DNA from: Henckelia pumila
Lineage: Eukaryota > Streptophyta > Magnoliopsida > Lamiales > Gesneriaceae
NCBI RefSeq assembly: GCF_033568475.1
Contig: NC_133122.1
Span: 180,129,449-180,193,448, forward strand
Direction: 5' to 3'
Length of the DNA: 64,000 nt
The notes under the pieces: generated by a model
Told to the model about the DNA's origin: nothing
Database searches by the model: none
What the model saw: only the letters and a program-made list of their open reading frames with translations
Program-made: the position numbers and the translations under genes
Shown: in pieces, positions 10,601 through 62,761 of the stretch
How the letters are laid out: each line of letters starts with the position of its first letter
Position numbering within the stretch: position 1 is the first letter of the stretch

Positions 10601-10607
10601 CTTATTT

Positions 10608-10625: not shown

Positions 10626-10681
10626 GATAAATGGGAGAGAAATAAATAGTCATAATCGCCCCAATCATCTTTCTTCCTCAA

Positions 10682-10714
10682 ATGAAATGGCAAATCGGAT
10701 CATCGCCGCCATAG
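10682..10714 (+). promoter_or_regulatory. Overlapping 10-codon upstream ORF
   Basis: An ATG lies 5 bp before the main start in another frame and runs 10 codons to a TAG inside the coding region. Initiation here would bypass the main start. The paralogue has ATG-TAA at the same place. Confidence 0.5.
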
Positions 10715-19449: not shown

Positions 19450-19455
19450 ATGTAA
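19450..19455 (+). promoter_or_regulatory. Minimal start-stop upstream ORF (ATG-TAA)
   Basis: The leader reads ATGTAATGG: an ATG followed at once by TAA, whose last A is the first base of the real start codon. A single base difference (T against A) separates it from the overlapping uORF of copy 1. Confidence 0.5.
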
Positions 19456-38940: not shown

Positions 38941-40141
38941 TTGAAAATAATACTTATATTGAGTTTTCTTCTTTTTTTTAAAAAAAAATGTCTTAACATT
39001 TTTAATTTCTAAAGTAAGTTATCGCGAGACCATAGATTTGGTTTTTTTTTTTTTTTTTTTTTATAAAAAAAACATTTATATACTATTAATAAAAGAAAAG
39101 AAGTTAATAGTAACTATTTTTGGTGATTTTTTTTTTAATATTTCAAATGTACTCTTAGTTTTTTGTGGCTTTTATTTTTTTATTCAACTTTGATTTACTT
39201 TTTAAAATTTTTGTAGAACTTTATTTTTTTCTTAGTGAAAGAATGTTTGAATTTGTTCTATTGTGTCACAATTATAAATCATTAACTTTATATAATAATC
39301 TTTTTTTATTAAAAAAATGATTTATCTGCTATAATTTTGTGTATATATATCGCGTGTGCCCCAGTTGCTAGTATAATTAATAATAATAGAGAAAGGCAAA
39401 AGTAACATACATGTTTTTCTTATATGTTCGTATAGATGCCGATGTTTTATATAATTATGGATTTATATCCCATTTCAAATATATAATTGTATACATAGTT
39501 TTTTTCTCATAAAAAACACACACATATCCGGATGGAGAGTTTCCATTTTGATCATGTAAAAGAAATACGGAATATTAATAACAAAATATGATGATGGCAT
39601 TTACTTTGAAGATGATGGTCTTCTCGAGTCCCAGTTCAGTCCAAATAGAAACGACGTTTCGAGACTAATCCCACAATAAAGCAACAGGTGAAAGGTCCAG
39701 TTTTGATTTTTTTTTTTTTTTCATGTAAGGTCCACAAAAAATGTGGACCCCACATGAAAAAAAAATATGTGCACAAATCTGGACCCTTCTCGTGCAGTTG
39801 AGGAAGTACCACAACTGTAGGGTCAAATCTCACGTCTTTTGACTCTGTACTCCTTTATTTCCATGGCCATGATTCATAATTTTCATATGAGACCCACAAG
39901 TTTCATGTAGGGTTCACGTGAAAATTATATGTGGCTCAATCATGGTCATCAAATCTGCAGAAGGGTTATTACCGCAGGGTCGAATTACCCGTAGATGATA
40001 TGCTAGATAGCTATCATCACGTTATTATCTTTATATTATATTGAACGATTATTTGATTTTAATATGTAACGTGGAGTAGATATTTTTTATAAACTCTACA
40101 TATCTGAATTTTGTTCGATTGAATGTTACGTTATAGTAGTC
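38941..40141. other. T-rich intergenic DNA with a hairpin
   Basis: Long T-runs occur, and a perfect-looking hairpin lies at 39722-39756 (CATGTAAGGTCCACA and TGTGGACCCCACATG) inside a poly-T/poly-A frame. Motifs ACTGTAGGGTCAAAT (39815) and CCGCAGGGTCGAATT (39972) recur. No gene is seen. Confidence 0.45.
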
Positions 40142-40849
40142 AGGGGTGGAGCCAGAACTAGATATCAAGAAGGGCCAATAGCAAACTCGAAAAAGATCAA
40201 ATATTTATTATATATAACAATAAAAATTTTAATATATTATATTGTATCAAATTAATACTACATTAATATTCATCATAAAAATTATAAATATATCATTATT
40301 TCTCGAATCTATTAGAATTTAATTAGAAATTCTCATTGCAAATCACGAAAATCATCTACGACTACAAGAAAACTATATCGAACTTTTCAGAAATTTGATT
40401 CTCAATATACACTAGCAAACAATCATTAAAAATTCCACATTTCATCATATTATGAAGCATAATTCCGACTATATTTATAATATAATTACATATTTATAAA
40501 AACAAAAAAATCAATATATTTTAAAATATTAAGTATCCTCCCGAGTACATGTTAGAATAAATGAAACAAAGAAAGTTATTTTAAAAATCGTGTAATAAAA
40601 CATTAATGACAATGGATTTTTTTTTTTTAAAAAAACACATCTCACAAAAATTTAAAAACGAATTATAATTCAAGAGAGTAAAAAAATAAAAGAAAGGAAC
40701 ACACATTTTATTTTGTAGCTTTTAAACAAGATGAAGGGGAGGGTAGGGAAGAGAAGAAAAAATTAAAGACTAAATATTGCATGAAAAAATTGAGGTTGGC
40801 ATTCGATAAATTATGTTTATCAGTTTTATAAAATTAATTCAAAAAAATA
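40142..40849. mobile_element. Left end of a hAT-like element (CAGGGGTGGAGCCAG)
   Basis: The terminus CAGGGGTGGAGCCAGAAC is typical of plant hAT elements. No matching right end was found downstream, so the element is truncated or the boundary is chance. The AT-rich interior has no coding capacity. Confidence 0.4.
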
Positions 40850-41851
40850 AAAAAAATATATTACTATTTTGATGAGCAGCTCCATCAGCTACTCTATTCA
40901 TGTGCGATAACGATATGAACCCCGGAGAGTCAAGAAGAGCCCGAATTTCCAAAGTCATGATCATTAACTCCTTTTGGACCCAAAGTCTCAACATGATGGT
41001 TAACTGCGTGAACTGCCTAAAGAGATTCCGAAAAGATTCAAACATTGAAAAAGCCAAGAACCTGACACACATCCTCTGAAGTCACAAATTACAGCCCCAA
41101 CATTGAAACGATTCAAACGTTCGTTGCATCCCACGTCAACATCCAATCGCAATTGGTTTTGTATTAGAGGTTTCCAAACCGATTTTGAACTTTGAAAATC
41201 TGCTTGTATAGGAGAATCACACCTGAAAGAAGCCAGCCTTACGACCTCTGCATAGAACACGAATGGGTAATCCTACGAACCTCTCGAATCATACTATATA
41301 TATATATACACCTCATCACCGCAAACAATTCAATATCCTCCTTTTTAAAATAGTTCAATAGCACTAGCCCATAGTCAACAAAGGAAGCCTTCTTAAATTA
41401 ACGCAAAAGACTCCAAAAAATTGAATTTTTCCATGCATTCTACACACCCTTACAAAAGAAAATAGTATGAATCGTAGCAGCGAAAGTATTCTTGCATAAA
41501 GGACAAATACGTGTCGTTGGAACATTATGTGAACAATATTTCACTAATTCTCCAAAGTATATTTTGATTGGAATGGTGGTGGTGCTAAGCTATTTATCTC
41601 CACAACATAACCAAGTTAAACGGAAAAATTTCCGTTTGAGCTTCCCACCTAATATCTAACATTTGCACAACCCTTTTTATTCAAGGGTATGTTACGAATT
41701 GCTTCTGCTTCATATACTGGGAAAACCTGACAACCTCTAATCCCAAGTTCCATTGATTGTAATTAGATCAACCACTTTCAAAAGCGAATTCCTCTGCGAA
41801 CTTAAGAAGCTTCATCTAAGGGTCTGATAGAGCTAGAATATATATAATTAC
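40850..41851 (-). mobile_element. LINE, 3' third (zinc-finger and RNase H-like region)
   Basis: Read on the minus strand, degenerate frames give EAEAIRNIPL, a zinc-finger region (ICPLCKNTFAATIHTIFFC) and an RNase H-like region (DVDVGCNERLNRFNVGAVICDFRG, then SLSHMNRVADGAAH). This is the C-terminal order of plant L1-type LINE ORF2. Stops and frameshifts show it is dead. The piece continues the LINE at 52682-53821 after an LTR inserted with a 5-bp duplication (ATTAC at 41847-41851). Confidence 0.75.
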
Positions 41852-42149
41852 TGTAGTAACTCTGCACGGATCACATATTAACTTTCAATCTTAAGCATGC
41901 AATTAGCTTAATAGAAAATAACTATAAAAGAGAGTAATCTCAACATGTTTACAACATAAACGGACGAAATACAAGCAGTACTAAAACCCAAAATATAGTT
42001 ATACATAAAACCATATTAAAATCCAAATCTAGCTGTAGGCAAATAAAAAATATTAGTAGCCCCTGGTCCCTGTACCTAACCCTTCCTCGATCCTCTCGTT
42101 CCGTCCAAACTGAGATGTGAAGACCTGAAAAATCAGTTGAGTAGTCGAA

Positions 42150-43602
42150 GAACAAGTTCGAGTTGAGCAGCTGAACTGGGCCAACCACAAAAGCAGCCCG
42201 AGTTGAGCAGCTAAACTAGACCAATCGAAGAACAAAAGCAGTCAGGCCAGTCCATTGGGGCGTCCAACTGCCAATCCGTAATAAACAACAGAAAGTATGG
42301 GATTTTGTAACCGATGTAATAACTCAAAATCAAGGAAATTCAAGGGAATTAAATGGCGTGCAACAACCAAATTTGAGCCTATAAATAGCACTCAGAATTC
42401 CGATTAAGAGTGGCACAAGATTCTGAGCAAATACACAGAAATTCGATTGAGAGAATTCAGTGGAGCGACCATCGAACGTCCAGTCGAGTTTCACCTCAAG
42501 AACAACTGAAATTTCTATTAGCAATCTATAGTAAGTGGGCTTTTGGTTCTAAAGCTAATATTACGTTTTAAATCTATTCTAGCATGTATATCTGCTTTCA
42601 AAGTCTGAATATCTGAAATATGTGATTTTGATGCACTGAAGCTTGTGAACTAGTGATAGGAATATATATTCTGAACAATCTGCTTTGTTTTTGTTCTGAT
42701 TCCTCATCCTTTAGAGGATAAACATATAAGAGATTGATATCAGTTAGCCACAAAAATCATGAGTAAACTGGTGCATAATTTGATTCTGTAATTCTGTTGA
42801 ATATATATGATTTTAGTTTTGCTATGATTCTGTATATGTATAAGATTTTTGTTAAAAAACTAATTTTAAAAGCTGAGATATTTTCTCAATTTACCGAGTG
42901 ATACTCATATCACTCACCCAACCAAAACCATCTCAGATAAGAACGAAGAAGGACTCGAGGATGATGAGCAGAACTAGTTTTGGGGCTGGTGAATACGATC
43001 ACTGACTTCTGAAATTTAGATTTAGTATACTATGTCCGCTGCATTTTTTTTATCAGTTTAGAGTTCTGTTAATCGAGCATTGTAAAAGACGATGAGCACG
43101 TTTGGGAACAATAAATTTTTATTTAAAAAAGTGTTTTTTAAAGTTGGATTTTAAAAGTATTTTTTCAAATAAAAGTTGTAGTATTTTTGTATTTGGATAA
43201 ACAAATGAAAAACACTTATTTAATTGATGAATCTGTTTGGAAGAATATTATTTGTGTTTGGATAAACAAATAAAAAACAATTATCTAGAAATAAAATTAT
43301 AAAAGCACTTAAAAAAGCCACATTTTTTGGCTTCTAAAAAAACATCAATTATAGCTTAATTAAGTGCTTTTTAAATCACTTAGAAGCCTATCCAAACACT
43401 AAAATAATCACAAAAGTGCTTTTTTTTTTAATTAAAAAAAGTGCTTTTCTTAAATTATCTAGTGTTCCCAAACGGGCTTGATGTATTTCAGTTTATGAAG
43501 TAAAAGACTGGTTATTTCAAAATTATGTAAGAGGCTTGCTGTTTAATATGAAAACGTTAAATAACGTCGATGTCAACTAGATCCCAGTTACGGGACGTGA
43601 CA
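42150..43602 (+). mobile_element. LTR-like insertion inside LTR-B
   Basis: This block interrupts LTR-B. It has a TATA-type AGCCTATAAATAGC (42378) and ends GATCCCAGTTACGGGACGTGACA-like sequence at about 43580-43602, a typical gypsy LTR terminus. It is probably a solo LTR of another family. The left end is uncertain; no secure TSD was found. Confidence 0.45.
43094..43478. mobile_element. MITE with CACGTTTGGGAACA ends
   Basis: GAGCACGTTTGGGAACA at the left and TGTTCCCAAACGGGCT at the right are inverted. The interior has AAGTGCTTTTT motifs in both orientations. No clear target duplication was found. It is nested in the LTR-like block. Confidence 0.6.
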
Positions 43603-44019
43603 TGATACCTGCCCTGTGGAGTGGGATGTCGAAGATAATACCGAGTACGTGACCGACTAACGTCCAGTACGAAATTATGAGTCTAGAAGCTAATATGATG
43701 CATGCAGCATGAGATGACTGAGTGATTGGTCAACTACCAAGTCCTGCTCAGACTATGAGCCAATGAATATGTAGCACCATCTGGTAATTCCACCGCGGGA
43801 TAGCTCACACACTCGTCTAGATCACCATAGCATCTGTCTCCATCATAACAATAACTCCCGGTGTCAGACCCATATATGCAGGTGTAGAGTTGAGCGACCC
43901 TACTAGAAAGACTATCTCAAAGGAGATACGACTCAACATGTATGTACACATGTAGTATATATAAAAAGCAACAAAACAAATATCACGACACATAAGATGT
44001 AACATATAAGCATACATAC

Positions 44020-45540
44020 TGTAGTGAACCGTTTAGAATCACTTACTAACAGAGACTTTAAGCATGCAATTAAAACTTAACAATCAATAATCAAAGAAAA
44101 CTGCGGAAACTTTAAACAAATACTAATCCGACAGAATACAACTGGTAATTAATGTACAATCAAATCGAAAACCCAAAAACAATAGGGCCAGTTCTAACTA
44201 TCCCTGCTGGTACCATTTGAGTCCACAACTCTTTGGTCACCAACTACAAACTAGTCCCCTAACCTGGAAAACCTGCAACTGCCCCGTCGAATGGGGTTGT
44301 CCAATAAAAATACACGGACGTGAGCTAACAAAGCTTAGTACAGATGTATGAATATACACATGCTATGAATGCTAAACGCAAGTAAAGGGTGCCAAAAACT
44401 TATCCATATAGAATCCTGCTCAGTCAAAGGCGCCATGGTATGTAGCCCACTGGGCTGTCGCATCAGGAGGTACTCCATACCATAAAATCGTGAAAATATC
44501 CGGATCCAAAACCATGGTATCCATCCAAAAAATATAATGGGACTGAGCGACCCCTCTACTGGTTATATCAATGATAAAAGGCTCAACATGATAATGCATG
44601 CATCATAATATCCGTGACATAATCAATACACATATCAGTAATGCCACATAAAACATGCAAACATAGAAGATTCATATTCAACCAGGGTATCTCGGATAGT
44701 ACGTTCGTGCCTCAAATCATGCAAATCAAGCAACCTAGCCACCTGGGTACTCGAGTCCAAGCCTATAAGCATATAATCATTATATCACTTATAGTTCTCT
44801 AAAATCCATAACTAAACTAATAGCTACTCACAAAAGATAATCAAAGTCTAGCAATATACCTGCATCCGTCGTTAGCTCTTTGATGACGATGACCTCAAAA
44901 CATAGGCACAACTCCGCTACGATTTCGGTAGCACCTCGCTATCTCCCGACCTCCATAAATGATGCCTAAAATGGCCTAAAAGCCCATTAGAAACACCTAG
45001 GAACGAGAGAAAGAGAGAGAAAAATGAGCAAGTGAAATGAGGTCTCGGCACCCCTATTTATAGACCACGTTCGAAACTACCAAACTCGCGATCGGAACTT
45101 TCGAACTCACTTCGGATCTTTCGATCGTGCTTCCGAATTCTCTCCACTGAACTTATGTCTTTTGATTGGAAAACACGGCTGTCGACAACGTTCAAAAATT
45201 CCGAACTAGGGGATCGAAACTACCGATCTCCACCCTGTCCAATCACAATTCAGAAAGCCCATATCTGCCTGTCGGGAAACGTTCAGATATTTCGAACTCA
45301 GGATCAGAGCTTCCGAACTCCAACTCTTGCTTTCGAAGGGATCGGAACTTTCGATCTCCACCCTGTTAAAGTTTGGACCTTCCGAACTGTCGAACACTTG
45401 GAACCCTCCGGACCATTTTCGAACGTCCTGAATCCGATTTTTTACTTATTAATCACATCTGAGAATTACTTAATCATGTTTTAAAAATTCTAAATATGCT
45501 TAGACATTTAATTTTTTATTTTGAAAATCGGGTTACTACA
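44020..45540 (-). mobile_element. Solo gypsy LTR with perfect TSD
   Basis: It starts TGTAGTGAACC and ends CGGGTTACTACA. Flanks are CATAC on both sides (44015-44019 and 45541-45545). The LTR is 1521 bp in minus orientation. U3 (about 45060-45420) holds many TCGGAACTTTCGAAC-type motifs. A TATA box lies at 45053-45062 (complement of CTATTTATAG), and the conserved CCGTCGTTAGC motif is at 44866. It is nested in LTR-B. Confidence 0.85.
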
Positions 45541-45892
45541 CATACTCACTAGCAATCTCAATCAGTACTTACGTACGTCTATATGATAGGTCGAGTGAAA
45601 TCAGGGTCTAGTGTCAAAACCTACAGTCAAATGATTATCATATCACTAATCATGTTCTAAAAGCCTTAACTAAGCTAACAGATACTCTTATTTTCTAATA
45701 GAATTCTCGGACCATACCTATGTCCGTCGTAGCCTGCCAATGTCAAAAGCCCTGGATTTTAGGCACAACTCTGTTGTTATTCCAGAAGCACCTTGTTATT
45801 GCTCGGCACTCACTTGTATGACTAACTCACTAGTATAAACTGATTTGAAAGGGAAATTGTGAATGTGTGACTTCTGAAATGCTATGTTGGAT

Positions 45893-46234
45893 TGCAATAA
45901 TTGTCCCTGCGAGATAGCGTGATCGAACCATGGTGCTTGGGCTGTTATGCGGTTTAAAATATTTGAGTTGCACAATTACCACCAGCTATAACTTTTGGTA
46001 AAGTGGAAAGCGCTCGGTCCTACAATTGGTATCAAATATAATGTCATGTGTTTGATTTCATTGATTACAATGATGCAATTATTGAGAAGGAGATTTTCGG
46101 GGTGCGATAATTATCCCTGTTGGATAGAACGATCGAACCATAACGCTTGGACTGTTGTACGGTTTAAAATATTTGAGTTGTAATATTACCACTAGCTATA
46201 GTTTTTGGTAAAGCGGCAAGCACTCGGTCCTACA
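45893..46234 (+). mobile_element. TRIM-like miniature LTR retrotransposon
   Basis: Two 132-bp direct repeats (45893-46024 and 46103-46234) start TGCNATAATTNTCCCTG and end TCGGTCCTACA. Between them are 78 bp that begin ATTGGTATCAAAT, close to the initiator-Met tRNA binding site TGGTATCAGAG. They end in a purine-rich GAGAAGGAG...CGGGG. This is the layout of a TRIM. A TSD was not confirmed; the exact ends may shift a few bases. Confidence 0.65.
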
Positions 46235-46472
46235 AGCTGCCTCAAAGCCCTATTTATAAACAGAGTTCGGATGCTCCGAACTCAGATTTGGACCTTCCAA
46301 ACTCTGCATGCGTGAAACGTATCTGGTTTTTGAGTTCGGTTGGTCTAATCGCCCCTTCGGATGTTCCGAACTCTGCATGCAACGATGAGTCACCACTTCT
46401 CGGACACCTCATGGGCAAATGACTTTGGAAGGTCCGATCGGGACTTTAGACGTTCCGAACTGCCACGTGTCC

Positions 46473-46769
46473 TGTAGTAGCCCGGTTCTATTTTACAAGA
46501 TTAAATGATTTTAAACATGTTAAAAAATGACATATAATTTTAAAAATGTCAAAACGTGTTTTAGGATTCCTTATTTGGTTAAAATAAGTGGAAAATCAGA
46601 TCCGAAACATCCGAAAATGGTAGGGTAGGTCCCAGGGGTCCAAAAATGAGTTTGAAAGGACCAAAACAGTTTGGAGCATACTGACCAGTTCGGGCCGTCG
46701 GAACCCAGTTCGGACCGTTCGAACTCCGCCTATAAATAGGCCATCCAAGGACCTCATTTCTCACTCAAT

Positions 46770-46815
<46 letters not shown>

Positions 46816-47876
46816 TTCAGCTTGTTTTTAGGGGTTTAGGGGTGATTCCAGCCTTCCTAGGCTTGGTCCGTAGGTTGGCCAGGTGCTCCGGGGTTGCGGC
46901 GGAGCGGTGCCTAAGTTCTGGGGCAGTCGTCATCAGTGGGCTGACGACAGACGCAGGTATAGCTTTGGCTCCTTATAGTAAATAGGAAGTATGCTATAGT
47001 CTAGTTAAGGCTTTTAGAATAAAGTGATAATGCATGAGTACTTTGCATTGTAGTGTGGACTGTAGGCTTAGATATAGTGCTGGTCTAGCTTGCCTAGTTT
47101 TTGAGGTACGGAAGTATTATTCGAGATATCCAGATTGAGTATGCATGTATTATGTGTTTGCATGGATTATGTGATTGCATGTTTTATATGCCTTTTTATA
47201 TACAACATGTCACGACTATATGTTGAATACATGAGCATATTGAGCCTGTATCCTTGCTATATCCGGTATTTGGATATTTATCCTGTCAGTAAATGGTTGG
47301 ACACAAAGACACGTGTTAGGTCACCAAAATCAGTTGGACACGGATCTCGTGTTAGGTCACTGATATTTGGTTGGACACGTGTACTTGTGTTAGGTCACCA
47401 TCAGGGCTTCTGAGTATGTTGGTCACCTCCTGTAGCGACGGCTAAGCGTAGCACATACCAGGACCCAAGTTTGTTCTTGATCAGATACTTTTGACCTCGT
47501 GTCTTGGTACACAGTTCACTTGCATACATGCACATATAATACCGTATACTCATACTCTCGTACTGAGCTTATCATGCTCACGTCCCGTACTTGTTGTATC
47601 TGGACACCCTATTCCATAGGGCAGGTCTGCGGCTGGATGATGCGGGTGGTTCCAGGAGGGCTTAGGCGTTGGATGACCAGCAAGGCATTGTCTAGGCTTT
47701 TGTTTCTGTTGTATTTGGGTTAATACATTGGATTTATTTGATTTGGTTGTATCATAATTATTTTATTTGGGGATTTATTTATGCTTTTCCGCTGTTAATT
47801 CTGATGATTTTATTATTTAAGTTAAATGCATGCTTAAGCTTTTGATTAGTAGGTGATCACGGCGCGGGTCACTACA
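46473..47876 (+). repeat. 5' LTR of the gag-only element
   Basis: TGTAGTAGCCCGG to GGGTCACTACA, 1404 bp. It contains two TTCGG-N-TCGGAAC palindromes (46687-46722), a TATA box CCTATAAATAGG, a (CT)n run (46772-46812) and the conserved CATCAGTGGGCTGACGAC motif (46931-46948). Confidence 0.85.
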
Positions 47877-47955
47877 TTTATGGTATGAGAGAATGCATAG
47901 TAATCTTGAGATCTAGATTGTTGAAATTGGGTTTAACCTTTCGATCATCGTATGG

Positions 47956-48948
47956 ATGGCGGGACATGGTGACGAAAGTAGCCATAGTAGCGTGGGTGGA
48001 CGCTGGGGTGATCAGGACGATCGGGAGCATTGTCGGGCCATCATCACCATCGCCATGATGATCATAGGCGCTTCAGTATGCACAGGTTTTTGCAGATGGG
48101 TCTGAAACCATTAGTCGGAGGTGAGTCACCGGAGGATGCGGAGACCTGGCTTTGGCATATGGAGGTCTGCTTCCGAGAGTTCCGTTGCACAGAGGAGCAG
48201 AAAATGGAGACTCTTGAATTCCTCGTGGATGGACTAGCTCCGAGATGGTGGCATTCTGCATCCACACCATTTATTACAGCCCGGGGAGTTGCTACCTGGG
48301 AAGAATTCCGCACAGCTTTTCACAAGCTTTATTTTCCTCCTACAGGCGAAGGCGAGCAAGTTACTGAGTTTGCGTCAGGGATCGATGTCGATCGACGATT
48401 ACCAGCTGAAGTTCTTTGAGTTGCTGCCCTATTGCCCCCAGATTTCTGATAGCACGGAGGCGAAGTATAATCTGTTCCTCCAGGGTCTTAATCCGAAAAT
48501 CCATGACCGGGTAGCTGTGGGTAATGACATGACTTATGAGGGATTAGTTAGTCGATGTCATCAGACGGAGGATAGCATTCGATGCAACATGTCTTTCTTC
48601 TCATCTAGACCCACGAGTTCTTTGAGTCCCCGTACTTAGTCATTTAAGAAATCCGGATCTTCTTCATCTACAGGATCTGGTGAGACTCGTCAGCCGGGCA
48701 AGAATAAGTTGCAGTGTGATCATTGTGGGAGAGACCATCTCACTGAGAATTTTAGAGCCGCTGCTGGAGCTTGTTTCATCTGTGGAAGTGTTGATCACTT
48801 CAAGAGAGATTGTCCCAAGCGTAGTGGACAGAGTGGACAAGAATCTAGGATGGTATCTCAGGTGAGTAGACAGTATGAGGTATCAGTGCAGCAAAGGACC
48901 CAGAGTAGGCATCATGGAGATGGTCAGCAGTCTCGGATGCAGGGTTAG
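47956..48948 (+). pseudogene. Degraded gag with CCHC zinc knuckle
   Basis: The likely start is 47956 (MAGHGDESSH), like the gag of the minus-strand element at 58286. Frames change near 48010 and near 48345, and a TAG lies at 48637-48639. Recognisable parts are GLKPLVGGESPEDAETWL, the capsid-like region SLRQGSMSIDDYQLKFFELL and the knuckle CFICGSVDHFKRDC (48775-48816). Gag would form the particle that packages element RNA; this copy cannot make an intact one. Confidence 0.8.
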
Positions 48949-50149
48949 ATTTATGCTTTGCAGGGAGCTCAGACGCAGTCAGAAAATAATGTTAACGCTC
49001 ATAATGATTTTTATGGATGATGTATTTGAGTTTTCCGTTTGATAAATTCTGTTTTGTGATAGCAGAATATAAATAAGTTGTATTCTGACAATCATGTGGA
49101 TTTATGATTTGGGAATTTTCTAAATTTAATTCCAAGTATTTTCTGATCGATATTCAACTGTGTTGAATTAGTTGATATTTGCATAACCAAGGATTAGAGT
49201 TGTGCTTGTTTTCAGATGATCAGTTCTAGGCTTTTTCCTATGATTCAAAAAGTCCGTGATTTGACGTAGTGCCAAAGTTGACTTGTTTTCTCAGAAACTC
49301 AGTGTTTGGGTCATTGGTTATTGGTGATGGATTTTCATCATACTTTGAGTGATGAATTATACCAGGTGCTGAGGACTGTGCTGGATTGTTCAAGACGGGA
49401 TAGGAAGCGCGACCTACGCCGATGTTTTCTGGGAAGTTTATTCCAGATAGGATATTGGGGGAGGCTACCTGAGTCTTGATATTTTGCACAGTTATAGCAA
49501 GGAGTATAATTACCAAAAGGAATGTTCTTATGAATTTGATATTGGTAGTGGATTAGTACCAAGAGATTTGAACGTTATCGTCTGACTTTATCAGGGATAC
49601 AAATTTTAGTTTCCGTTGACAGAATAGTTTTGGAAAGAATTCTTTGACAAGTGTACATTCTGGATGGATAGTTTTCACAGGTGGTACTGGGGGAGAACCA
49701 AGATATTCGATCATTATCGTCTGGCAATATCAGAGTTACAGATAGTGATCGAGGACATGATCAACATGATGATTTGAGTTTCTTATTAAGTGATTGTAAG
49801 ACTTATTTGGGTGATTTCCCTATGAGATTAGAGATATGATTTTGAGTTGTCAAGTGATGAAAATTTTCATTAGGATACAGTGATGATTGATAATGAGAGA
49901 CGTGGACTGTAATCAGGATTGGAAGTGGTGGTATGTGTTCCCATTATTGCTCTGGAAGTCTTTTGTACTTCAGAAAGGTTATTGGAAAGTTACCCCAGTC
50001 TAGAGACCATGATGTTACTAGTGATTATTTAGATTCAGTGAGGTCTTGTAAAATTATATGAGAGAATAAAGAACTTGTTGTTCTTATTCAAGTCCATATC
50101 GGTACTTAAGATGTATTTCGAGGACGAAATTATCTTAAGTGGGGGAGAA

Positions 50150-50515
50150 TATAGTAGACCGATTCTATTTTACAAGATTAAATGATTTTAAACATGTTAG
50201 AAAATGACATATAATTTTAAAAGTGTCAATACATGTTTAAGGAGTCCTTATTTAGTTAAAATAAGTGGAAAATCATATCCGAAACGTCCGAAAAAGGTAG
50301 GGTAGGTCCCAGGGGTCCAAAAATGAGTTTGGAAGGACCAAAACAGTTCGGAGCATACGGACCAGTTCGGGCCCTCCGAACCACTTCGGGCCCTCCAAAC
50401 CCAGTTCGGGCCATCCGAACTCAGTAGAGCCCAGGTGTCAAAATGGCTCGGACAAGTGGCAGTTCGGGCCGTCCGAACTCCGCCTATAAATAGGCCATCC
50501 GAGGGCCTCATTTCT

Positions 50516-50593
<78 letters not shown>

Positions 50594-51654
50594 TTCAGCT
50601 TGGTTTTAGGGGTTTAGGGGTGATTCCAGCCTTCCTAGGCTTGGTCCGGAGGTTGGCCAGGTGCTTCGGGATTGCGGCGGAGCGGTGCCCAAGTTCTGGG
50701 GCAGTCGTCATCAGCGGGCTGACGACGGACGCAGGTATAGCTTTGGCTCCTTATAGTAAATAGGAAGTATGCTATAGTCTAGTTAAGGCTTTTAGAATAA
50801 AGTGATAATGCATGAGTACTTTGCATTGTAGTATAGACTGTAGGCTTGTACATAGTGCTGGTCTAGCTTGCCTAGTTTTTGAGGTACGGAAGTATTTTTC
50901 GAGATATCCAGATTGAGTATGCATGTATTATGTGTTTGCATGGATTATGTGATTGCATGTTTTATATGCCTTTATATATACAGCATGTCACGACTATATG
51001 TTGCATACATGAGCATATTGAGCCTGTATCCTTGCGATATCCGGTATTTGGATATTTATCCTGTCAGTAGATGGTTGGACACAGAGACACATGTTAGGTC
51101 ACCAAAATCAGTTTGACACGGATCTCGTGTTAGGTCACTGATATTTGGTTGGACACGTGTACTTGTGTTAGGTCAACATCAGGGCTTCTGGGTATGTTGG
51201 TCACCTCCTGTAGCAACGGCTCAGCGTGGAACATACCAGGACCCAAGTTTGTTCTTGATCAGATATTCTTGACCTCGTGTCTTGGTACACAGTTCACTTG
51301 CATACATGCACATATAATACCGTATACTCATACTCTCGTACTGAGCTTATCATGCTCACGTCCCGTACTTGTTGTATCTGGACACCCTATTCCATAGGGC
51401 AGGTCTGCGGCTGGATGATGCGGGTGGTTCCAGGAGGGCTTAGGCATTGGATGACCAGCAAGGCTTTGTCTAGACTTTTGTTTCTGTTGTATTTGAGTTA
51501 ATACATTTGATTTATTCGATTTGGTTGTATCATAATTATTTTATTTGGGGATTTATTTATGCTTTTCCGCTGTTAATTTTGATGATTTTATTATTTAAGT
51601 TAAATGCATGCTTAAACTTTTGATTAGTAGGTGATCACGGCGCGGATCACTACA
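50150..51654 (+). repeat. 3' LTR of the gag-only element
   Basis: It starts TATAGTAGACC (TG mutated to TA) and ends CGGATCACTACA; 1505 bp. It has four TTCGGGCC-N-TCCGAAC palindromes (50346-50480) against two in the 5' LTR, and a longer (CT)n run (50516-50590). Confidence 0.85.
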
Positions 51655-51683
51655 TGTCCTGTATCCAAATGTCCACTCACTTG

Positions 51684-52349
51684 TAGGGATTGCAATGAGC
51701 CGGGTTTAGTGTTAAACCCGCCCCGGATGAGGCGGGTTCAAACCCGATCAAACGGGTTTTGGGGCGGGGCGGCTCTTGGTCAACGGGTCCGGAGACGTGT
51801 CCGGGGCGGGTCCCGGGTTTGAGTGCACCCCCCGAACCCGCCCCGTATATATATATATATTTATATTTTATATATCATATAAAATAATATATAACATTTA
51901 TAATATATTATATATAGTATATATTAATATATACAGTATCTCTATAAAATATATTATATTATATATATAGTATATATATTTTAGATATACAATATATTAT
52001 ATACAGTAATATACCGTAGATTATATATATGTATAATTTTTTTTTGTTCAGTATATATCGTATAAATATATATATATATACATACTGTATATATATATTT
52101 CATATAAATAAATAGATATGTATATATAAATATATTTATAATATTATAAATAATAATATATTTAATTTTTATTAAAAAATAAATGTTAACGGGTTCGTGG
52201 GTCCAAACCCGGGTTGGACCACCAGGTTTTGAGGCGGGGCGGGTCAAAAAAAGAGGCGGGGCGGGTTCGGGTCTGGGTCTAATATCTTTTGGCGGGCGGT
52301 TCTTGGGTTTGGCAAAACCCGCCTCGAACCCGCCCCGTTGCCATCCCCA
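51684..52349. mobile_element. hAT-like non-autonomous element
   Basis: The ends TAGGGATTGCAATG and CCGTTGCCATCCCCA are inverted. Flanks are CTCACTTG on both sides (51676-51683 and 52350-52357), a perfect 8-bp duplication. GC-rich arms with CGGGGCGGG motifs flank a ~330-bp AT core of TATATA repeats. It is non-coding and sits inside LTR-B. Confidence 0.85.
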
Positions 52350-52681
52350 CTCACTTGCTTGTTTGTCTCGCTAAGGATCGGACGTTCCTATCGTAGTTCG
52401 GACCTTTCGAACTGTTCTTTTGCATCCGAACATTGACCATGCTTCTGAAAACGTTCGGACCTTTCGAACTGAATTCGAACATTTCGAACCGCCCTGCATC
52501 AGAACTTAAACAAGGCCTAGTTCAGTGCTTCCGAACTGTACCTCGGACCTTCCAAACCTTCGAGTGGATCTGAAGCTTGAAATTCATATTTTATTCCTAA
52601 TTAAGTTTTTATTTGTATAAATTTTAACCCTTAACCATATTTAATATTTAATTAACTTAAATCAGGGTATGAGTTACTACC

Positions 52682-53821
52682 ATTAGCCCATTACCATCCC
52701 CAACTCTCCAGAAAATCCCCTTACGGATGACATTGCGCCTCCATAGTGATGATCACCACATAAAAGAAGGTTTGGAACCCAGATCCGCCACCATTACGTC
52801 AAAGTGTTTAACACAGAGAGATTTAAAGATATTGGCCATCAACGAGTTAGGATAATGGAACACTCGTCAAACTTGCTTGGCCACAAGGGCTTTGTTAAAT
52901 GCACTCAACTTATGAAAACCCATTCCCTGCCACTTCGGCCTACAGACGCTATCCCAACTCAACCAATGCATACCCATTTTCCCTGTGTTTTTAGACCACC
53001 AAAAAATTGCACAAGGTTGCTTTATTCCTTGACAGACTGAGATTGGTATTTTAAGGCAAAACAAATCATAAGTCGGTATAGCTTGCAACACTACTTTAAT
53101 TAGAACTTCACGACCTCCCATAGAAAATCTTTTGACCACCACCCTTGAATTTTCCGACAAACGCACTCGCACAAATAGGAAAAATGGAGTCGTTTTTTTT
53201 TAATAAAGAGAATGTTGGCATCCCAAATAGAGATCGTGAGCCTGTACCATTGAAGTAGGAAACACGTTCTTGATATATTAGATAACACCATAAGAAGTAT
53301 TAGGGCTAAAAAAAAGCGCAGATTTATCATAATTAACCATCTGACTTGACGCCCTTTCATAAATTCGTAAACATTGGCGAAATTGTAAGAAACACTCTTT
53401 CTTCGCTATAAAAAAGACTAGACTATCATCTACAAAGAAAAAATATGAAACAACCGGACATGACGCTGCAATCTTCACTCCTTTGAAGAGCCTTTGATTC
53501 ACGACTTTTGAAATTATAGAGGACAAGCCATGTGCACATAGAACAAACAAAAATGAGGATAGCTTATCTCTTTGCCTCGGCCCTATAGAAGGCTGAATTT
53601 TGCCAACAAAAAATTGGTTGATCCGGAAAGCATATCTAACTAAGATAACACACCTCATAATAAAATTAACCCACTCCTTGGAAAACCCTCGTTTAATCAT
53701 TATAGTACTCAAAAAGCTCCACTTAAATTTGTCACTCATATCAAGCTCTAAAAGCTGTGTATCCTGATTTCTCCTTCTTGTTATTCCTAATCCAATTCAT
53801 ACATTCAAAACCAATAATGAC
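52682..53821 (-). mobile_element. LINE, middle piece (reverse transcriptase core to C-terminus)
   Basis: On the minus strand, 53739-53278 shows DMSDKFKWSFL, the active-site region FFFVDDSLVF (family FADD) and YERASSQMVNYDKSA. 53172-52867 shows GGREVLIKVVLQAIPTY, IFWWSKN and GMGFHKLSAFNKALVAKQ. This is an L1-type plant RT. Frameshifts separate the parts. Its 5' neighbour in the LINE is now at 61631-61862 and its 3' neighbour at 40850-41851. Confidence 0.85.
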
Positions 53822-54789
53822 TGTAGTAGCCCGATTCTATTTTACAAGATTAATTTTCTAATCATGTTTAGAATTAATGAAACATGAATTAAGATATTTT
53901 TATATAATTTAACGGACCAAGGAATTGGGTCTAGAATGCCCGAAAAATGCTTAATGGGTTTATTTAGGCTCGGGCAGTTCGAGGGTCCAAACCAGATCGA
54001 AGCCACCGATGGAGTTTGGAAGATAAGGGTCAGATCGGAGCGTCCGAACTCAGTGCCATGCACGTGGACATTGGGATTGAACACGTAGCTGCATGCAAGG
54101 GATCAGAGCCTCCGAAGTGGGATCAGAGAGTCAGATCTTACCCGGTCGGAACGTGGAACTCATGAATGGATCGGAGCGTCCAATCGATGTCTATAAATAG
54201 GGGTCCGAGAGCTCTTATTTCTTGCTCATTTCTCATCTCTCCTTGGCCCATGTTAGCTTGATTTTAAGAGCTTTTGGTTACTCTTATTTTAAGAGTTGGA
54301 GTGGTAGTAGTTTTTTTTATAACGGACAGTGTCCGTAGTAGTGGCCAGGCGGGGAGCTCTGACAAGGTGTCCAAGAGTCTTAGCAAGGTTGTGCCCAAGC
54401 TCTAGGGCATGCGACATCAGCGGGCTGACGACAGACGAAGGTATGGTTATGGTTTCTTATAGGAAATAGGGAGTATGTTATAGTTTAGTTAAGACTTTTA
54501 GAGCATGTTAGGTTTTGTTTGGCATGCCAGATAATGCATGGTATTTATGTATTGTAGTGCTGCATGGTAGGCTTGGACCTAGAGGGGAGCTTCTAGGATC
54601 TGCCTTAGTAAGGTACTGAAGTTTTATTCGAGATATCCAGATTGAGTATACATGTATTATGTGATTGCATGATTTATATGATACATCATGCCACGATTGT
54701 ATGTTGCATACATGAGCATATTGAGCCTTTATCCTAGAAGTATCCTATAGTAGGGCGCTCACCCTACGAGTTTGTGGATGGTTGGATAC
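53822..54789 (+). mobile_element. Gypsy element D, 5' LTR (right part lost)
   Basis: It starts TGTAGTAGCCCGATTC and matches 60198-61165 closely, including GATCGGAGCGTCCGAAC, TATA (TCTATAAATAGG) and the CATCAGCGGGCTGACGAC motif. It breaks off after GGTTGGATAC, where unrelated sequence starts TGTGAGACC. The left flank is ATGAC (53817-53821), matching ATGGC after the 3' LTR. Confidence 0.8.
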
Positions 54790-55013
54790 TGTGAGACCTC
54801 GGTTCTAAACAATAATTAAACATACCAGACCCAACCAAGAAAAGCGATTATTTTTTTTTTATAAAAGAGAACGCCTCGCGCTCGCGCTCGACAACATCTC
54901 GCGCGCGCGCAAGCTATGCCTCCAGATCCCCAGCTGAAGGCTCGCGCCCGCGCGAGATACATCTCTCCACCAAACATCTCGAAAAAAATTGATACACACT
55001 CCTCTTCATCCCT
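54790..55013. mobile_element. Unassigned LTR-like fragment (TGTGAGACCTCGG)
   Basis: It begins TGTGAGACCTCGGTTC and holds a GC-rich CGCGCTCGCGCTCG block and a T-run. It looks like the end of an LTR of another family. It is joined directly to the broken integrase of element E. Open frames through it are not conserved. Confidence 0.4.
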
Positions 55014-55273
55014 TTCCACCAGAATCTAGTTCGCAAATTCTTATACATTTTCATGCTTCCAGGATGAACTGATAATCGACTCCTGTGAGCTTGAGAAAGA
55101 ATATCGTTCCTGAGTTCCGCAACATCAGGTACAACCACTCAATTAGATAAGCACAATAATCCATCTGCCTGAAAATGGAATCCAGATGTATTAACCCCAT
55201 TGGTTAGACGTGCCAAACGCTGAGTCTTAACATCAGATATCTGAGCATTTCTGATCCGAGAATACAATGCTGG

Positions 55274-56848
55274 CTAAGATAGAATAGTATACAATCGAAT
55301 CTCATTTCTCCCTTTCCTGTGCTTGAGCGTAAAACTCAATGAACAACACTCTTGTATCATATGAGATATTTCATTAGTCTGAAGTGTAGACAGTCTCACC
55401 TGCCGACTCAAGACATCAGCAGTAAGATTAGCAGAACTTGGATGATATTTGATTTCATAATCATAATCCTTCAGAAGATCCATCCAGCGTCTCTGTCGCA
55501 TATTCAACTCCGCCTGAGTGAATAAATACTTCAAACTCTTGTGATCCGTAAATATCTCAAATTTCTCGCCATAAAGATAATGCCTCCAAATATTGAGTGC
55601 AAATACAATGGCGGCTAACTTGAGATCATGTACTGGATAATTATTCTCATGCGTCTTCAACTGTCGAGAAGCATAGACAATAACATGTCCATGCTGTGTA
55701 AGAACACATCCTAACCCCTGACCAGATGCATCAGTATAGACAATATAACCTCCTGATCCAGAAGGTAGAGCTAACACAGGTGCAGTAGTAAGACGTCTAC
55801 GCAGCTCGTGAAATGACTCCTCACAATCCGAGGACCATATGAAGGCAACATCTTTCCGCGTAAGCTGTGTCAAAGGCCTGGCCAACTGTGCAAAATTCTC
55901 GATGAACCGACGGTAATAACCCGCTAGACCCAAGAAACTTCGAATCTCAGCAACCGTCGTCGGACGAGACCAGTTCAGCACTGCCTCTATCTTACTTGGA
56001 TCAACAGATATCCCTTCACTAGAAATTACATGACCGAGAAACACTACCCGATCAAGCCAGAATTCGCACTTGCTTAATTTCGCATACATCTGCTTATCTC
56101 GTAACGTCTGTAAAATAATTCTCAGATGCTGTGCATGCTTATCCTTGTCATGAGAATAGACAAGAATATCATCAATAAAGACGATGACAAATCTATCCAG
56201 ATATTCTTGAAATACCTGATTCATCAGATTCATAAAGACTGCCGGTGCATTCGTCAAACCGAATGGCATCACCAGAAATTCATAATGCCCGTATCTGGTC
56301 TTGAAAGCAGTCGTAGAAATATCTGAGTCTCGTACCCGCATCTGGTGGTATCCAGATCTCAGATCTATCTTCGAGTAAACAGAAGTACCCTGTAATTGAT
56401 CGAACAGATCATCAATCCACGACAAAGGATACTTATTCTTGATGGTGACACGATTCAACTGCCTGTAGTCAATACATAATCGCATCGATCCATCCTTCTT
56501 CTTGACGAACAAAACAGGTGCTCCCCACGAAGAAACACTCGGACGAATATATCCCTTATCAAACAGATCCTGCAATTGCTGTTTCAATTCCCTCATCTCT
56601 GACGGTGCCAGACGATAAGGTGCTCGAGATATAGGCATAGTTCCTGGTACTAGATCAATACCAAATTCAACCTCTCGAACCGGAGGAAAATCAGGAATCT
56701 CATCAGGGAATACATCAGGAAACTTGCTGACAACCGGTAACTGATCGATACCCGGACTACTCGTGGACATATCAACTGCATAGATGAGGTAGCCCTCCCC
56801 ACCTGACTCTAAGACATGACATGCCTTCAAAGCCGAAACAAGTGGCAT
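55274..56848 (-). pseudogene. Gypsy RT-RNase H of element E
   Basis: A 524-codon open frame. RT motifs include [33 protein letters not shown], the fingers-palm MPFGLTNAP and the catalytic FIDDILVYS. RNase H has [15 protein letters not shown] and [11 protein letters not shown]. The protein would copy element RNA into DNA. It is still open, but upstream it is out of frame with protease (shift near 56880), and it ends LYTILS before the integrase part, which continues in a disrupted frame. Confidence 0.85.
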
Positions 56849-57600
56849 CGGAGGTCGCGCACCCTCTCCATAAAAGTACCATCACCCTCATCCGGATGAA
56901 ACTGTATCAGACGCTGATAACAATCCACAGTAGCGTGATACAAAGTCAGCATATCTATTCCCAAAATACAATCCAAATCTGTCATCGCTAGAATCATCAG
57001 ATTAGTAGACAACACGTGACCCTCAAACTCTAGAAGGCAACCCATCACTAGACGCTTAGTCACTACCTCCTGCTCCAGCGGAGTAGATACAACTAAATCC
57101 ATATCTAATAATACATAAGGTAATATATGTATCTTAACAAAATGGCTAGAAATAAAAGAATGCGGTGCTCCAGTATCAATTAAAAAAAGTTCAGGAATAC
57201 CACATAACAAAAAGGTGCCTACCAACATGTGATCGCTTCCCTTAGTAGCCTGGTCTTGAGACAGAGCAAACACCTGCCCTTGTGAGTGTGGACGGTAACC
57301 AGAAGAACTCTGTGGTGCTGGCTGCTGACGTGGAAAAGTAGAAGCCTGAGATCCAACCTCTGATCCCGATCCACTAGCAGAACCCATACGCTGAGGACAA
57401 TCTCTCCGCAGATGTCCCTGCTCACCACAAATATAACAAGAACCAGTAGCCTTTCGACATGAAGCTGCAGGATGTTTCCCTCCACAGTGGCTGCAAAATT
57501 CCTCTTTCTTCTTCTTCTTCCCGAAACGGAATGTACCTCGTGAACCACGAGAACCAGATAAAGTAGAAGGAGTAGAAGAAGACATAGGTCCAGATTGCAC
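56827..57600 (-). pseudogene. Zinc knuckle and aspartic protease of element E
   Basis: The frame starts in the gag tail. CCHC knuckle CYICGEQGHLRRDC lies near residue 55, preceded by a CSHCGGKHPAASC finger. The retropepsin has the active site LIDTGAPHSFIS and, later, DCILGIDML. A frameshift near 56880 separates it from RT. Confidence 0.8.
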
Positions 57601-58286
57601 AACAGATTGAGCTCTAGGCTCAAAGATCCACTAGGCTGTCCTGGCATCATCAACTGTGCCCGCCTGTTGCTGGTCTCCACAAGACGGCAACGGTTCACCA
57701 AAGTCTCATAAGATGTCGGATCATTACAGACGACAACTTGTGAGTAGATATCTTGATTCAAACCTTGCAGAAAGATATCATACTTGGATGCATCACTGTC
57801 ACTGATATGAGGACTGAAAGGTAGCAGATCAAGAAATCGTTGCTGATATTGATCAATAGTCATTGATCCTTGCCTCAGAGTAAGCAAATCCATCGATCGT
57901 GCTCGGCGAACAGCTGGAGGAAAATACAGTTTCTGAAACTGCTGACAAAAATCTCTCCAAGTCACCTGTCCTCTCTTAGTACGTGCCTGAGCAACCTTGG
58001 CATCCCACCAAAATCATGCTCGATCCTCTAAAACGAATTCTAAAACTTCCAATTTCTGCTCCTCAGTGCAATCGAAAGCTCGAAAAGCACTCTCGAGTTT
58101 GGACATCCAACTTCTTGCTTGTTCAGGATTCTCGCCTCCCACCAAGGGTTTCGGTCCTACTTGCATGAACTTATTAATAGTGTAGCGACGTCTACCCTCA
58201 TGAGGACGATGCTGATCATCACGATGGCGATGATGACGATGATGACCACCTCCCTGGTCAATACTACTGTGACTCTCGCCAGCCAT
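57219..58286 (-). pseudogene. Gag of element E
   Basis: The start is at 58286 (MAGESHSS). It contains GPKPLVGGENPEQARSWM and a capsid-like core (LRQGSMTIDQYQQRFLDLLPF). A TGA near 58012 (EDRA-stop-FWWDAK) and a frameshift near 57620 break it. The frame to 57219 after the shift is not real. Confidence 0.8.
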
Positions 58287-58396
58287 ATCCTGAAAAGAAT
58301 TGCACATTAAAATCCCAAATGTGCAATAATTACTCAAGACTAAACTAAATCCCAAGTACTAATTCCCAAAATCTATGCATGCTCTGATATCAAAAA

Positions 58397-59900
58397 TGTA
58401 GTGACCCTGCATGGAATCACCTACTAACTGGCAACTAATAGCATGCATTAAACTTAATACAGCAAAATACTTAACAAAATAAAACGTGCGGAAACATAAT
58501 CCATAAATTATATATCAGCTTAGTAAAATATATCCAGGCTTAATACTGTAGTGATACAATCATATCGAAAAACTTAAAAGTAAACATTATACAGCTATAT
58601 CGAATCCTGCTGTATAATAAACTCCTCAAGGCTCCTGCTCCGTCCATCCTGCGACCTGCCGCATGGAATAGGTTGTCCAAGATAATAACTAGAACGTGAG
58701 CGCTAACGCCCAATACATAAACATGAGTAAACATATGTATATAGTGCATGCAACATGATGACTGGTAAAGGGTCATCTGAAAAGTCATGCTCAGTACCGG
58801 CGCCACATGAGTGCTGCCACCGCACGGATCAACCTCTGGGTGCAACCAAACTCGTCAAGTACACCAGAGTAGTCAGACATAAATGTCTCCGCCGTCGCGG
58901 TACTCTCAGTGACAGACTATCGAGTATAGAGCTGAGCGGCTCTATAATAAGGTATATCAAGGTATAGGCTCAAAGTGTATATGCACATGACATATGAATA
59001 TAGAAAGCGGTAAATCATATATCATGCCATATAATAATGTCAAATAAATGCAACATATAAACATGTATACTCGCTGGCAATCTCAGTCAATGTGTACGTA
59101 CCTCTAAGCTAGTTCAAGTATAGTAGGATCCTAGATTCCAAGCCTATATTCAGAAGTTCATCGTATCACTACACAAGTTCTATAAGCCTTAACTAAGCTA
59201 ATAAGTACTCCCAAAACTTAAATAGATTCCCGGACCATACCTTCGTCCGTCGATAGCCCTTTGAAGTCGCTAGTTCCGGATGACTATAACCACTCCTTGG
59301 TTATTCCAGAACCTCTATTATAACCGATAGGGACCTCAAGTGTATAACTCACACTATATAACTGAAGAAGAAAACTCGGGAATTCGTATTCAAATTATGA
59401 CTCCGAAGAGCCCTATTTATAGCCAAAAATCCGTCGGAGTTCGGACCCTCCGAACCTGCATGTACGACACTTGTCAAAATCGCGGATTAGTCATCTAGCA
59501 TTGCTGTCTGGGGGAGTTCGGAGCCTCCTAAGTGCTGGGTTCGGATCCTCCGAACCCAGGTTCGGATGGTCCGAACTTTGTATTTGAGTTCGGATGGTCC
59601 GAACTCATTTCGGTGCCTCCGAACTGTCCGAGACTCCCAGGACCCTCCCTACCATTTTCGGACGTTCCGAAGCTGTTTTTCCACTTATTTTTATCAAATA
59701 AGGACTCCTTAATCATGTTTTGCCACATTTAAAATTATATGCCATATCATAGCATGGAAAGTGGAACTTGGCTATCACCCTTATATGCAGCAATCCCTCT
59801 GGTAATTCTGAAGTCCAATTATGCCTTGAAATTGGTTAATTACTAACCCTTAATCATGTTTAACATATCATTATCTTAAAATAAAATCTGGGTTACTACA
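58397..59900 (-). repeat. 5' LTR of element E
   Basis: On the minus strand it starts TGTAGTAACCC (at 59900) and ends GGGTCACTACA (at 58397). It contains GGTTCGGATCCTCCGAACC (59538-59556), GAGTTCGGA-TGG-TCCGAACTC (59586-59606), a TATA box (complement at 59410-59422) and CCGTCGATAGCCC (59247). The 3' LTR of this element is absent. Confidence 0.85.
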
Positions 59901-60197
59901 GTTACTATAACTGTTTAACCAGAAAAGATATCTTTGGAATTTATTGGTATATTGAGCAATATGTGAGATATAGTTCAAGCAAGTATTGCAATTATATGGG
60001 ATAATATCCACTATGTATCACTGTTAAGATGATACAGTGGATACAGATCTGACATGTATGGAAATACCATGATGTTTACTGAATCATTCGGAAGATCTTG
60101 TAAAATGATGTGAATAAAGAAATTGTATTTCTTATTCAAATCCATATCGGTACTTAAGATTTATTTCGAGGATGAAATTATCTTAAGTGGGAAAAAA
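59901..60197 (+). mobile_element. Element D, remaining internal 3' end
   Basis: 297 bp before the 3' LTR, ending TTTCGAGGATGAAATT...TTAAGTGGGAAAAAA. It aligns with 49850-50149 of the gag-only element. The rest of the interior of D, with gag and pol, is missing; element E lies there instead. Confidence 0.75.
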
Positions 60198-61630
60198 TGT
60201 AGTAGCCCGGTTCTATTTTATAAGATTAATTTGCTAATCATGTTTAGAATTAATAAAACATGAAGTAAGGGATTTTTTATATAATCTAACGGACCAAGGA
60301 ATTGGGTCCAAAATGCCCGAAAAATGCTTAATGGGCTTATTTGGGCTCGGGCAGTTCGGAGGATTCTAACCAAATCGGAGCCACCGATGGAGTTTGGAAG
60401 CTAAGGGGCAGATCGGAGCGTCCGAACTCAGTTCCATGCACGTGGCCATAAGGCTTGAACACGTAGCTGCATGAAAGGGATCAGAGCGTTCGATCTTACC
60501 CGATTGGAACGTGGCACTCATGCACGGATATGAGCGTCTGATCGATGCCTATAAATAGGGGTCCGAGAGCTCTCATTTCTTGCTCATTTCTCACCTCTCC
60601 TTGGCCCATGTTAGCTTTATTTTAAGAGCTTTTGGGTACTCTTATTTTAAGAGTTGGAGTAGGTAGTAGTTTTTTTTTTATAACGGACAGTGTCCATAGT
60701 AGTGGCCAGGCAGCGGAGCTCTGGCAAGGTGTCCAGGAGTAGTATCAAGGCTGTGCCCAAGCTCTGGGGCATGCGACATCAGCGGGCTGACGACGGACGA
60801 AGGTATGGTTCTGGCTCCTTATAGGAAATAGGGAGTATATTATAGTTTAATTAAGACTTTTAGAGCATGTTAGGTGTTGTTTGGCATGCTAGATAATGCA
60901 TTGTATTTATGTATCATAATGCTGCAGGTAGGCTTGGACCTAGAGAAGAGCTTCTAGGATCTGTCTTAGTAAGGTACGTAAGTATTATTCGAGATATCCA
61001 GATTGAGTATACATGTATTATGTGTTTGCATGTATTATGTGATTGCATGATTTATATGATACAACATGTCACGACTGTATGTTGCATACATGATTATATT
61101 GAGCATTTATCCTAGAAGTATCCCGTAGTAGGGCACTCACCCTACGAGTTTGTGGATGGTTGGATACGTAAGTTTTGTGTCAGGTCACCATTATAGTTGG
61201 ACACTTGTACCAGTATCAGGACATCATTATCCACTGGGTATATGAGCCACCTCCTGAGGCGACGGCGCATCATGTTATATACCCTGGGCCCGGTCTATGA
61301 GCTTGATTTCTTGACCTGAGTGTCTTGGTACTCAGTTCACTTGCATACATGCACGTATAATACCGTATCCTCATACTCTTGTACTGAGCGTTTTATGCTC
61401 ACTTCCGGTTATTTTCTGTTGTCTGGATACCTTATTCAATGGGGCAGGTTGCAGATATTTATCCTGAGGATGAGGAGATTAGGTGGTGGTCAATACATGA
61501 TTGCAAGGTTGACCACTAGGTGGTATTTCTTGGTATATAGTCTCCGCATTTACTCTGCTTAAGATTTTCTATTAAGTCAAATGTATGCTTAAGTTTTGAT
61601 TAGTAAATGATCACGATGCGGGTCACTACA
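60198..61630 (+). repeat. 3' LTR of element D
   Basis: TGTAGTAGCCCGGTTC to GGGTCACTACA, 1433 bp. The flank ATGGC (61631-61635) matches ATGAC before the 5' LTR. It has GATCGGAGCGTCCGAAC (60411-60427), a TATA box CCTATAAATAGG (60547-60558) and the CATCAGCGGGCTGACGAC motif. Confidence 0.85.
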
Positions 61631-61862
61631 ATGGCATTATCCAAAATTAGTCTCTTTGGAATAAAAACAATTTGATATGAGTCAATAGCTTGATCAAGCA
61701 CTGGCCCGGGCCTATTAGTGATTACACAAGACACAATCTTATAACATGTATCGCATAAACTAAGAAACCTAAAATCTTTCAACATCGTAGAATCTGGCAC
61801 CTTGGGAATTAGGGTGATAAGTGTAGAGTTTCGCTCCAAAGGATCCCTTTTTCGTTGAGAAT
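61631..61862 (-). mobile_element. LINE, 5' piece (start of reverse transcriptase domain)
   Basis: On the minus strand: STLITLIPKVPDSTMLKDFR, then LCDTCYKIVSCVITNR and IPKRLILDNAIVVTRIVI. This is the first block of an L1-type RT (family LIPK..., FRPISL, GRLI.DN). It ends exactly at the LTR of element D and continues at 53821. Confidence 0.85.
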
Positions 61863-61890
61863 TTTAAGCTCCACAATAGTGACATTCGAT

Positions 61891-62475
61891 CTTTTTTTTT
61901 AACCATTAGATATTTTATGATTTACCAAAATGATATTCACTTTGTACCATTTGATTTTTTTTATTTACAAAAATGTCACGCACTCTGTAAAATTAATATA
62001 TTTATTGCGTTTTTGTGATTAATAATCACAAAAACGCTATATTTGTTTGTTTGTTGATAAAAAATGGACTGTACAAAAAGGCAAAACGTGCAGAATACTA
62101 GTATATATAATTTTCTTATTTTTATTCTTAACAAGTATATGATATGTACGACAATAACAAAATTGAGTAACTTTTTACTTGCCGAAAAATCTAAGGTTAC
62201 GTAAAGATATCAATTATAATCTTTTGACAATGTAATCATATTTCAATTACTCATCTAATTATTATTATTCTGATGAACGCGTTGCATGCTTATATAATCT
62301 GTTTTTAATAAAACTTAAAAAAATATAGCATTTTTTCTAAATAAATAGTCACAAAAACGCAATAGATATATTGATGTTACAAAGTGAGTGACATTTTCAT
62401 AAATAAATAGACATCAAAGAGCACAAAGTGAGTGTCATTCTGGTAAATAATAAAACATGTAATGGTTAAAAAAAG
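61891..62475. mobile_element. MITE with ~140-bp inverted ends
   Basis: TTTTTTTAACCATTAGATAT at the left and its inverse at the right start long arms containing TATTGCGTTTTTGTGA. No clean target duplication was found. It is non-coding. Confidence 0.6.
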
Positions 62476-62558
62476 AGGAAGCCATATAAGATGACTAATT
62501 TGGCTTATAATTTTGGTTTTATTAAAAATTAATTTAGGATATAATGATAATTTCAAAT

Positions 62559-62761
62559 CAAGTATCACCGATTAATTGAAAGTTGGTTAATTAAAGGACC
62601 TCTACTATAATAATATAATAAAATATTTCAACCATTAGTGTTTGGACTTCGTTGCCCATTATATCAAGCCTCACCGATTAATTGAAAGTTAGTTAAAACA
62701 TCTAATTTCACATCAGCCGTTGCCCATGTAGGTGCCCATGGTGGTTGCCCATTATATCAAA

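Follow-up and report, generated by a model that had tools for sequence, protein, structure and literature searches.

What becomes of a LINE in a plant genome when later elements keep landing in it, and can its pieces still be recognised as one? A 64,000-nt stretch of Henckelia pumila DNA (C3:180129449-180193448, hereafter the window) raises the question, since a sequence-only reading had joined three distant minus-strand pieces into one LINE interrupted by LTR elements. We followed this up with searches of the 884.7 Mb genome (133 contigs). We are nearly certain that the locus is a fragment of an L1-type LINE cut twice by LTR-retrotransposons, each of which was hit again.

Three pieces of one LINE

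By their similarity to known sequences, the three minus-strand pieces are assigned to a single plant L1-type LINE ORF2, carrying RT, zinc finger and part of RNase H:

61631 to 61889, minus strand: piece 1, RT start (P0001 6-78; L009 2721-2977; weak RVT_1 match below the cut-off)
52682 to 53821, minus strand: piece 2, RT core and C-terminal part (132 homologues; P0001 76-459)
40852 to 41851, minus strand: piece 3, zinc finger and most of RNase H (P0001 481-539; L006, L009, L011)

Piece 2 has 132 homologous proteins (120 listed, best E 4.5e-126), and the best of them, P0001 (541 aa), is collinear with all three pieces:

P0001 6-78: 61845-61627, piece 1
P0001 76-100: 53821-53747, piece 2
P0001 99-459: 53751-52681, piece 2
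P0001 481-497: 41790-41740, piece 3
P0001 503-539: 41729-41619, piece 3

The genomic LINE copy L009 follows the same order (61887-61635, 53812-52691, 41724-41566, 41529-41369 and 41178-41067), and when its core was compared by blastn (E up to 1e-3) with the window extended by the following 10 kb, no other segments matched. Pieces 1-3 are therefore collinear with known plant members, which places them among non-LTR RTs, and the claim that they form one LINE holds; a match to different LINE families, which would have spoken against it, was not seen, all pieces matching the family of P0001 and L009. As to their contents, the RT start, the RT core with C-terminus and the zinc finger stand as described, but the RNase H is incomplete, and the limits shift slightly, with the LINE extending to about 61887-61889 and 40852 and the element between pieces 2 and 3 spanning 41852-52681.

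The domains of L009 run endonuclease (Exo_endo_phos), RVT_1, zf-RVT and RNase H (RVT_3). The window copy, unlike L009, has no endonuclease part and no 3′ end, and its reading frame is interrupted by stops and shifted at least once. Pfam found no LINE domain in pieces 2 and 3 and only the sub-cut-off RVT_1 in piece 1. A TnsE_C match of piece 2 (E 0.2) is at chance level, and its ten PDB matches (all E >= 0.08) are likewise regarded as chance. Rfam, at gathering level, and tRNA scans found nothing.

Two breaks and their joints

Both LINE breaks are located at LTR ends, as had been proposed, and the proposed 5-bp duplications are also present: ATGAC/ATGGC around element D, between pieces 1 and 2, and ATTAC/ATTAG around the second element, LTR-B, between pieces 2 and 3, each agreeing at 4/5 bases. 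Among 200,000 random end pairs drawn from the same region, 5/5 agreement occurs in 0.14%, at least 4/5 in 1.85% and at least 3/5 in 11.3%, though the true chance level lies somewhat above these figures, as element ends were picked by eye at LTR-like termini.

To each joint we assigned an offset, the distance across the break minus the expected distance with the insert and one 5-bp copy removed, using LINE copies at 13 genomic places taken from search matches (duplicate loci per place excluded), three of which match piece 3 alone. Joint 1, between pieces 1 and 2, is exact to the base: the offset is 0 nt in seven of the eight measurable copies, the exception being L006 (-19), whose alignment ends 85 nt off. 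Joint 2, between pieces 2 and 3, was measurable in six copies; the three alignments ending closest to it (77, 77 and 82 nt) give +8, +8 and +7 nt, and those ending at 112, 131 and 329 nt give -29, +11 and +100 nt. The LINE is probably continuous here save for the loss of about 8 nt. A check for gaps or overlaps in the rejoined ORF2 is accordingly clean at joint 1 in seven of eight copies, but at joint 2 it finds the roughly 8 nt missing.

We also compared 150-nt flanks of each joint with P0001, keeping one, both or no copies of the target-site duplication (TSD). At joint 1, one copy gives an unbroken alignment to P0001 27-100 (69-70%), both copies give a frame shift and zero copies a split match. 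At joint 2 the scores are 65.5 bits with one copy, 66.6 with both and 62.0 with none, so that one copy is not favoured.

The same observations bear on whether the pieces might be separate insertions of one LINE family that fell into the right order by chance. Related copies are plentiful, with 45 matches to piece 2 in the genome, but no LINE part is repeated among the pieces, duplications stand at the breaks, and the zero offset in seven of eight copies at joint 1 contradicts the idea so strongly that we give it next to no chance.

A solo LTR and its inserts

A single fragmented LINE leaves two inserts to be accounted for. The one between pieces 2 and 3, LTR-B, consists of a single solo LTR in reverse orientation, about 1.5 kb long and itself interrupted:

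41852 to 52681, minus strand: LTR-B, solo LTR, reversed, cut by F, S, TRIM, A and H; ordered along LTR C (the LTR of element C, below), adjacent in family copies
42116 to 43602, minus strand: F, single LTR of another family, reversed; flank overlap, TSD TGAGA/TGATA (4/5)
43095 to 43478, strand unassigned: MITE-like piece within F; 47-nt inverted arms, 70% complementary
44020 to 45540, minus strand: S, solo LTR, reversed; flank overlap, TSD CATAC/CATAC (5/5)
about 45885 to 46234, plus strand: TRIM, two 130-140-bp terminal repeats; TSD TGCTA/AGCTG (3/5, a weak match)
46473 to 51654, plus strand: A, LTR element with LTRs 46473-47876 and 50150-51654; LTR pair, gag and zinc knuckle, TSD TGTCC/TGTCC (5/5)
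51683 to 52348, strand unassigned: H, hAT-like element; 8-bp TSD ACTCACTT at both sides (8/8)

The pieces of LTR-B match LTR C in order at 2-84, 276-387, 536-834, 844-1247 and 1423-1504; the stretches between these segments have no blastn match to LTR C. The nearest relative of one LTR-B piece among the matches listed is 83% identical. LTR-B (with one TSD mismatch) and S each have a single LTR and a TSD without an internal domain, as solo LTRs do.

At each insert, the overlap of its flanks was examined in eleven loci of the LTR-B family; for F and S a locus counts if its alignments extend to the joint on both sides. An overlap of exactly 5 nt is seen for F in six of the eleven (L027, L030, L032, L033, L034, L036) and for S in seven (L026, L028, L029, L030, L032, L033, L036); in L031 the pieces lie at other places. 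For A and H the overlap is readable in L035 only, at 5 nt for A and 8 nt for H, the latter with one end extrapolated by 2 nt. The flanks of F and S are thus precise in a number of family members, those of A and H in one. The left end of F at 42116 is matched in a single copy, L036, the remaining ends of this LTR being read by eye, as were the inverted ends of H.

The inner part of A, in a domain scan leaving out 49051-50149, retains gag remains and a zinc knuckle, and is too short for a full pol. TRIM combines short direct terminal repeats, 81% alike, with many genomic copies (1669 first-look candidates for 45885-46235, of which the best 40 were scored; at least 48 further matches), in keeping with its name; a primer-like site was read by eye alone. 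TRIM copies also occur in tandem, about 170-240 bp apart, in L038 (C4:64169754-64170531) and at C103:4028370-4029315.

Five independent hits in about 1.5 kb could be taken as a local target preference rather than chance, with LTR-B as a preferred landing pad. We consider this unlikely; if true, it would run against the reported avoidance of LTRs, which are described as not commonly targeted (PMC6911290).

Element D and its contents

The insert between pieces 1 and 2 contains the following:

53822 to 61630, plus strand: D, LTR element, left LTR 53822-54789 (broken), right LTR 60198-61630; LTR pair, TSD
54790 to 54968, plus strand: E, 179-bp LTR-like fragment between the end of the D LTR match and the start of C
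54969 to 59900, minus strand: C, reversed Ty3/gypsy element, LTR 58397-59900; domains, family copies

C reads gag, protease, RT, RNase H and integrase (zinc-binding start only), which is the Ty3/gypsy order, and its RT frame resembles Ty3 Gag-Pol (E 2.1e-87). The series is broken at two adjoining points. In the self-comparison the match of the left LTR of D to its right LTR ends at 54789, and C is cut at 54969, with no second LTR found. All 39 other copies of C listed (best 40 of 2775 candidates) begin at 54969 and are 96-98% identical; on this start we rejected E as part of C, and the high identity is consistent with a late arrival of C within D, whose LTR K2P is 0.086. A single deletion may have fused E to the integrase of C, removing at the same time the end of the left LTR of D, most of its inner part and the second LTR of C. 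LTR sequences of A, S, C and D are also related to a further stretch at 208-1257, with 60-66% identity.

At least five insertions had been proposed beyond the two that split the LINE, and eight can be placed: F, S, TRIM, A and H in LTR-B, C in D and, as candidates, E in D and the MITE-like piece within F. Families of such high copy number (1355, 1669 and 2775 first-look candidates) invite misassembly, and part of the nest could be an artefact of that kind; most joints, however, keep duplications and flank overlaps, which misjoins are not expected to produce, and we regard an artefact as very improbable.

Lost ends of the LINE

The assembled nest sits in a LINE of which both ends are lost. The 5′ part of L009 has zero tblastx matches in the window and the next 10 kb, where an endonuclease upstream of the RT was sought; six scattered blastn matches (60-70%) in the same range are regarded as low-complexity chance. 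The 3′ part of L009, sought there as a 3′ end with poly(A), is unmatched by blastn or tblastx. As L009 has an endonuclease and none was found for the window copy, we interpret the latter as truncated.

Its left limit lies near 40852, within RNase H. On the right it ends at about 61887-61889 and adjoins a palindromic repeat (61890-62626) in which a high-copy unit (641 first-look candidates) occurs twice, as inverted arms. Comparison with six copies shows in every case that the left arm is cut off at 61890, the LINE edge, while in five of the six the right arm continues to about 62621-62628. Had the LINE inserted into this repeat, the rest of the left arm might lie at its other side; a search of 39000-41000 gave two weak matches (60-67%), not at the LINE, and this origin was rejected. 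Both outer edges are additional breakpoints.

Breakage free of insertion therefore occurs nearby, at the E/C junction and at both outer edges, and about 8 nt are missing at joint 2, which might suggest that a deletion, inversion or translocation, not an insertion, made one or both LINE breaks. Against this, both breaks have LTR ends and 4/5 duplications, and joint 1 is base-exact; a rearrangement at either one seems to us highly doubtful, and insertion the far better account of both breaks.

Ages and order of the layers

The insertions had been described as a datable series, which overstates the case: A, D and TRIM can be dated, but LTR-B, S and F (single LTRs) and C (one LTR kept) have no LTR pair. 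K2P is 0.048 between the LTRs of A (1404 sites; 0.036 without CG and CHG sites), 0.086 for D (951 sites, at most 4 of them from E; 0.067 without CG and CHG) and 0.21 for the TRIM repeats (130 sites, standard error 0.048; 0.145 without CG and CHG). At a substitution rate of 1.3e-8 per site per year, A would be about 1.8, D 3.3 and TRIM 8 million years old, and half the rate would double these ages. The age of TRIM gives a rough minimum for LTR-B.

As no inner and outer element both carry dates, LTR divergence does not bear on the expected age order, and as the five insertions in LTR-B are siblings, the nesting order is partial only. LTR dates are in any case weak evidence of order, as about a quarter of nested elements are reported to show LTR divergence above that of their hosts (PMC7251063).

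Discussion

The history that fits best would start with LTR-retrotransposon insertions splitting a LINE fragment at two sites. LTR-B, inserted in reverse, would have shrunk to a solo LTR of about 1.5 kb, which F, S, TRIM, A and H then struck independently; the solo LTRs probably arose through LTR-LTR recombination. D would have received C, and probably E, before the deletion that now joins them.

We found no paper on this locus in a literature search. Structures of this type are well known and ordinary in plants, and the one at this locus is real. Nested LTR retrotransposons are common in plants (PMC6911290), so that the novelty of the locus is low. With the systems of that source and of PMC7251063 it shares the insertion of younger LTR elements into older ones, TSDs and the LTR-divergence clock; it differs in that its oldest host is a LINE and that a solo LTR was hit five times. 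REANNOTATE (PMC2672092) likewise rejoins pieces across later inserts, reconstructs nesting order and dates LTRs, whereas here one locus was treated by hand and its joints were tested by genomic copies and TSD overlaps.

Elsewhere in the window, 10600-14969 and 19422-22256 hold legume-lectin receptor kinase genes, a tandem pair 90% alike in the first part, both open frames breaking at about the same point of the kinase domain. Open frames at 4955-5698 and 30476-31360 match the VIT family and a prenyltransferase.

The locus leaves known mechanisms unchanged and shows a limit of LTR dating, an LTR pair being absent from its outer layer. The growth and decay of a plant genome can be followed here in good resolution, with a dead LINE serving as the record of about ten later insertions, one deletion and, probably, three events of solo-LTR formation.
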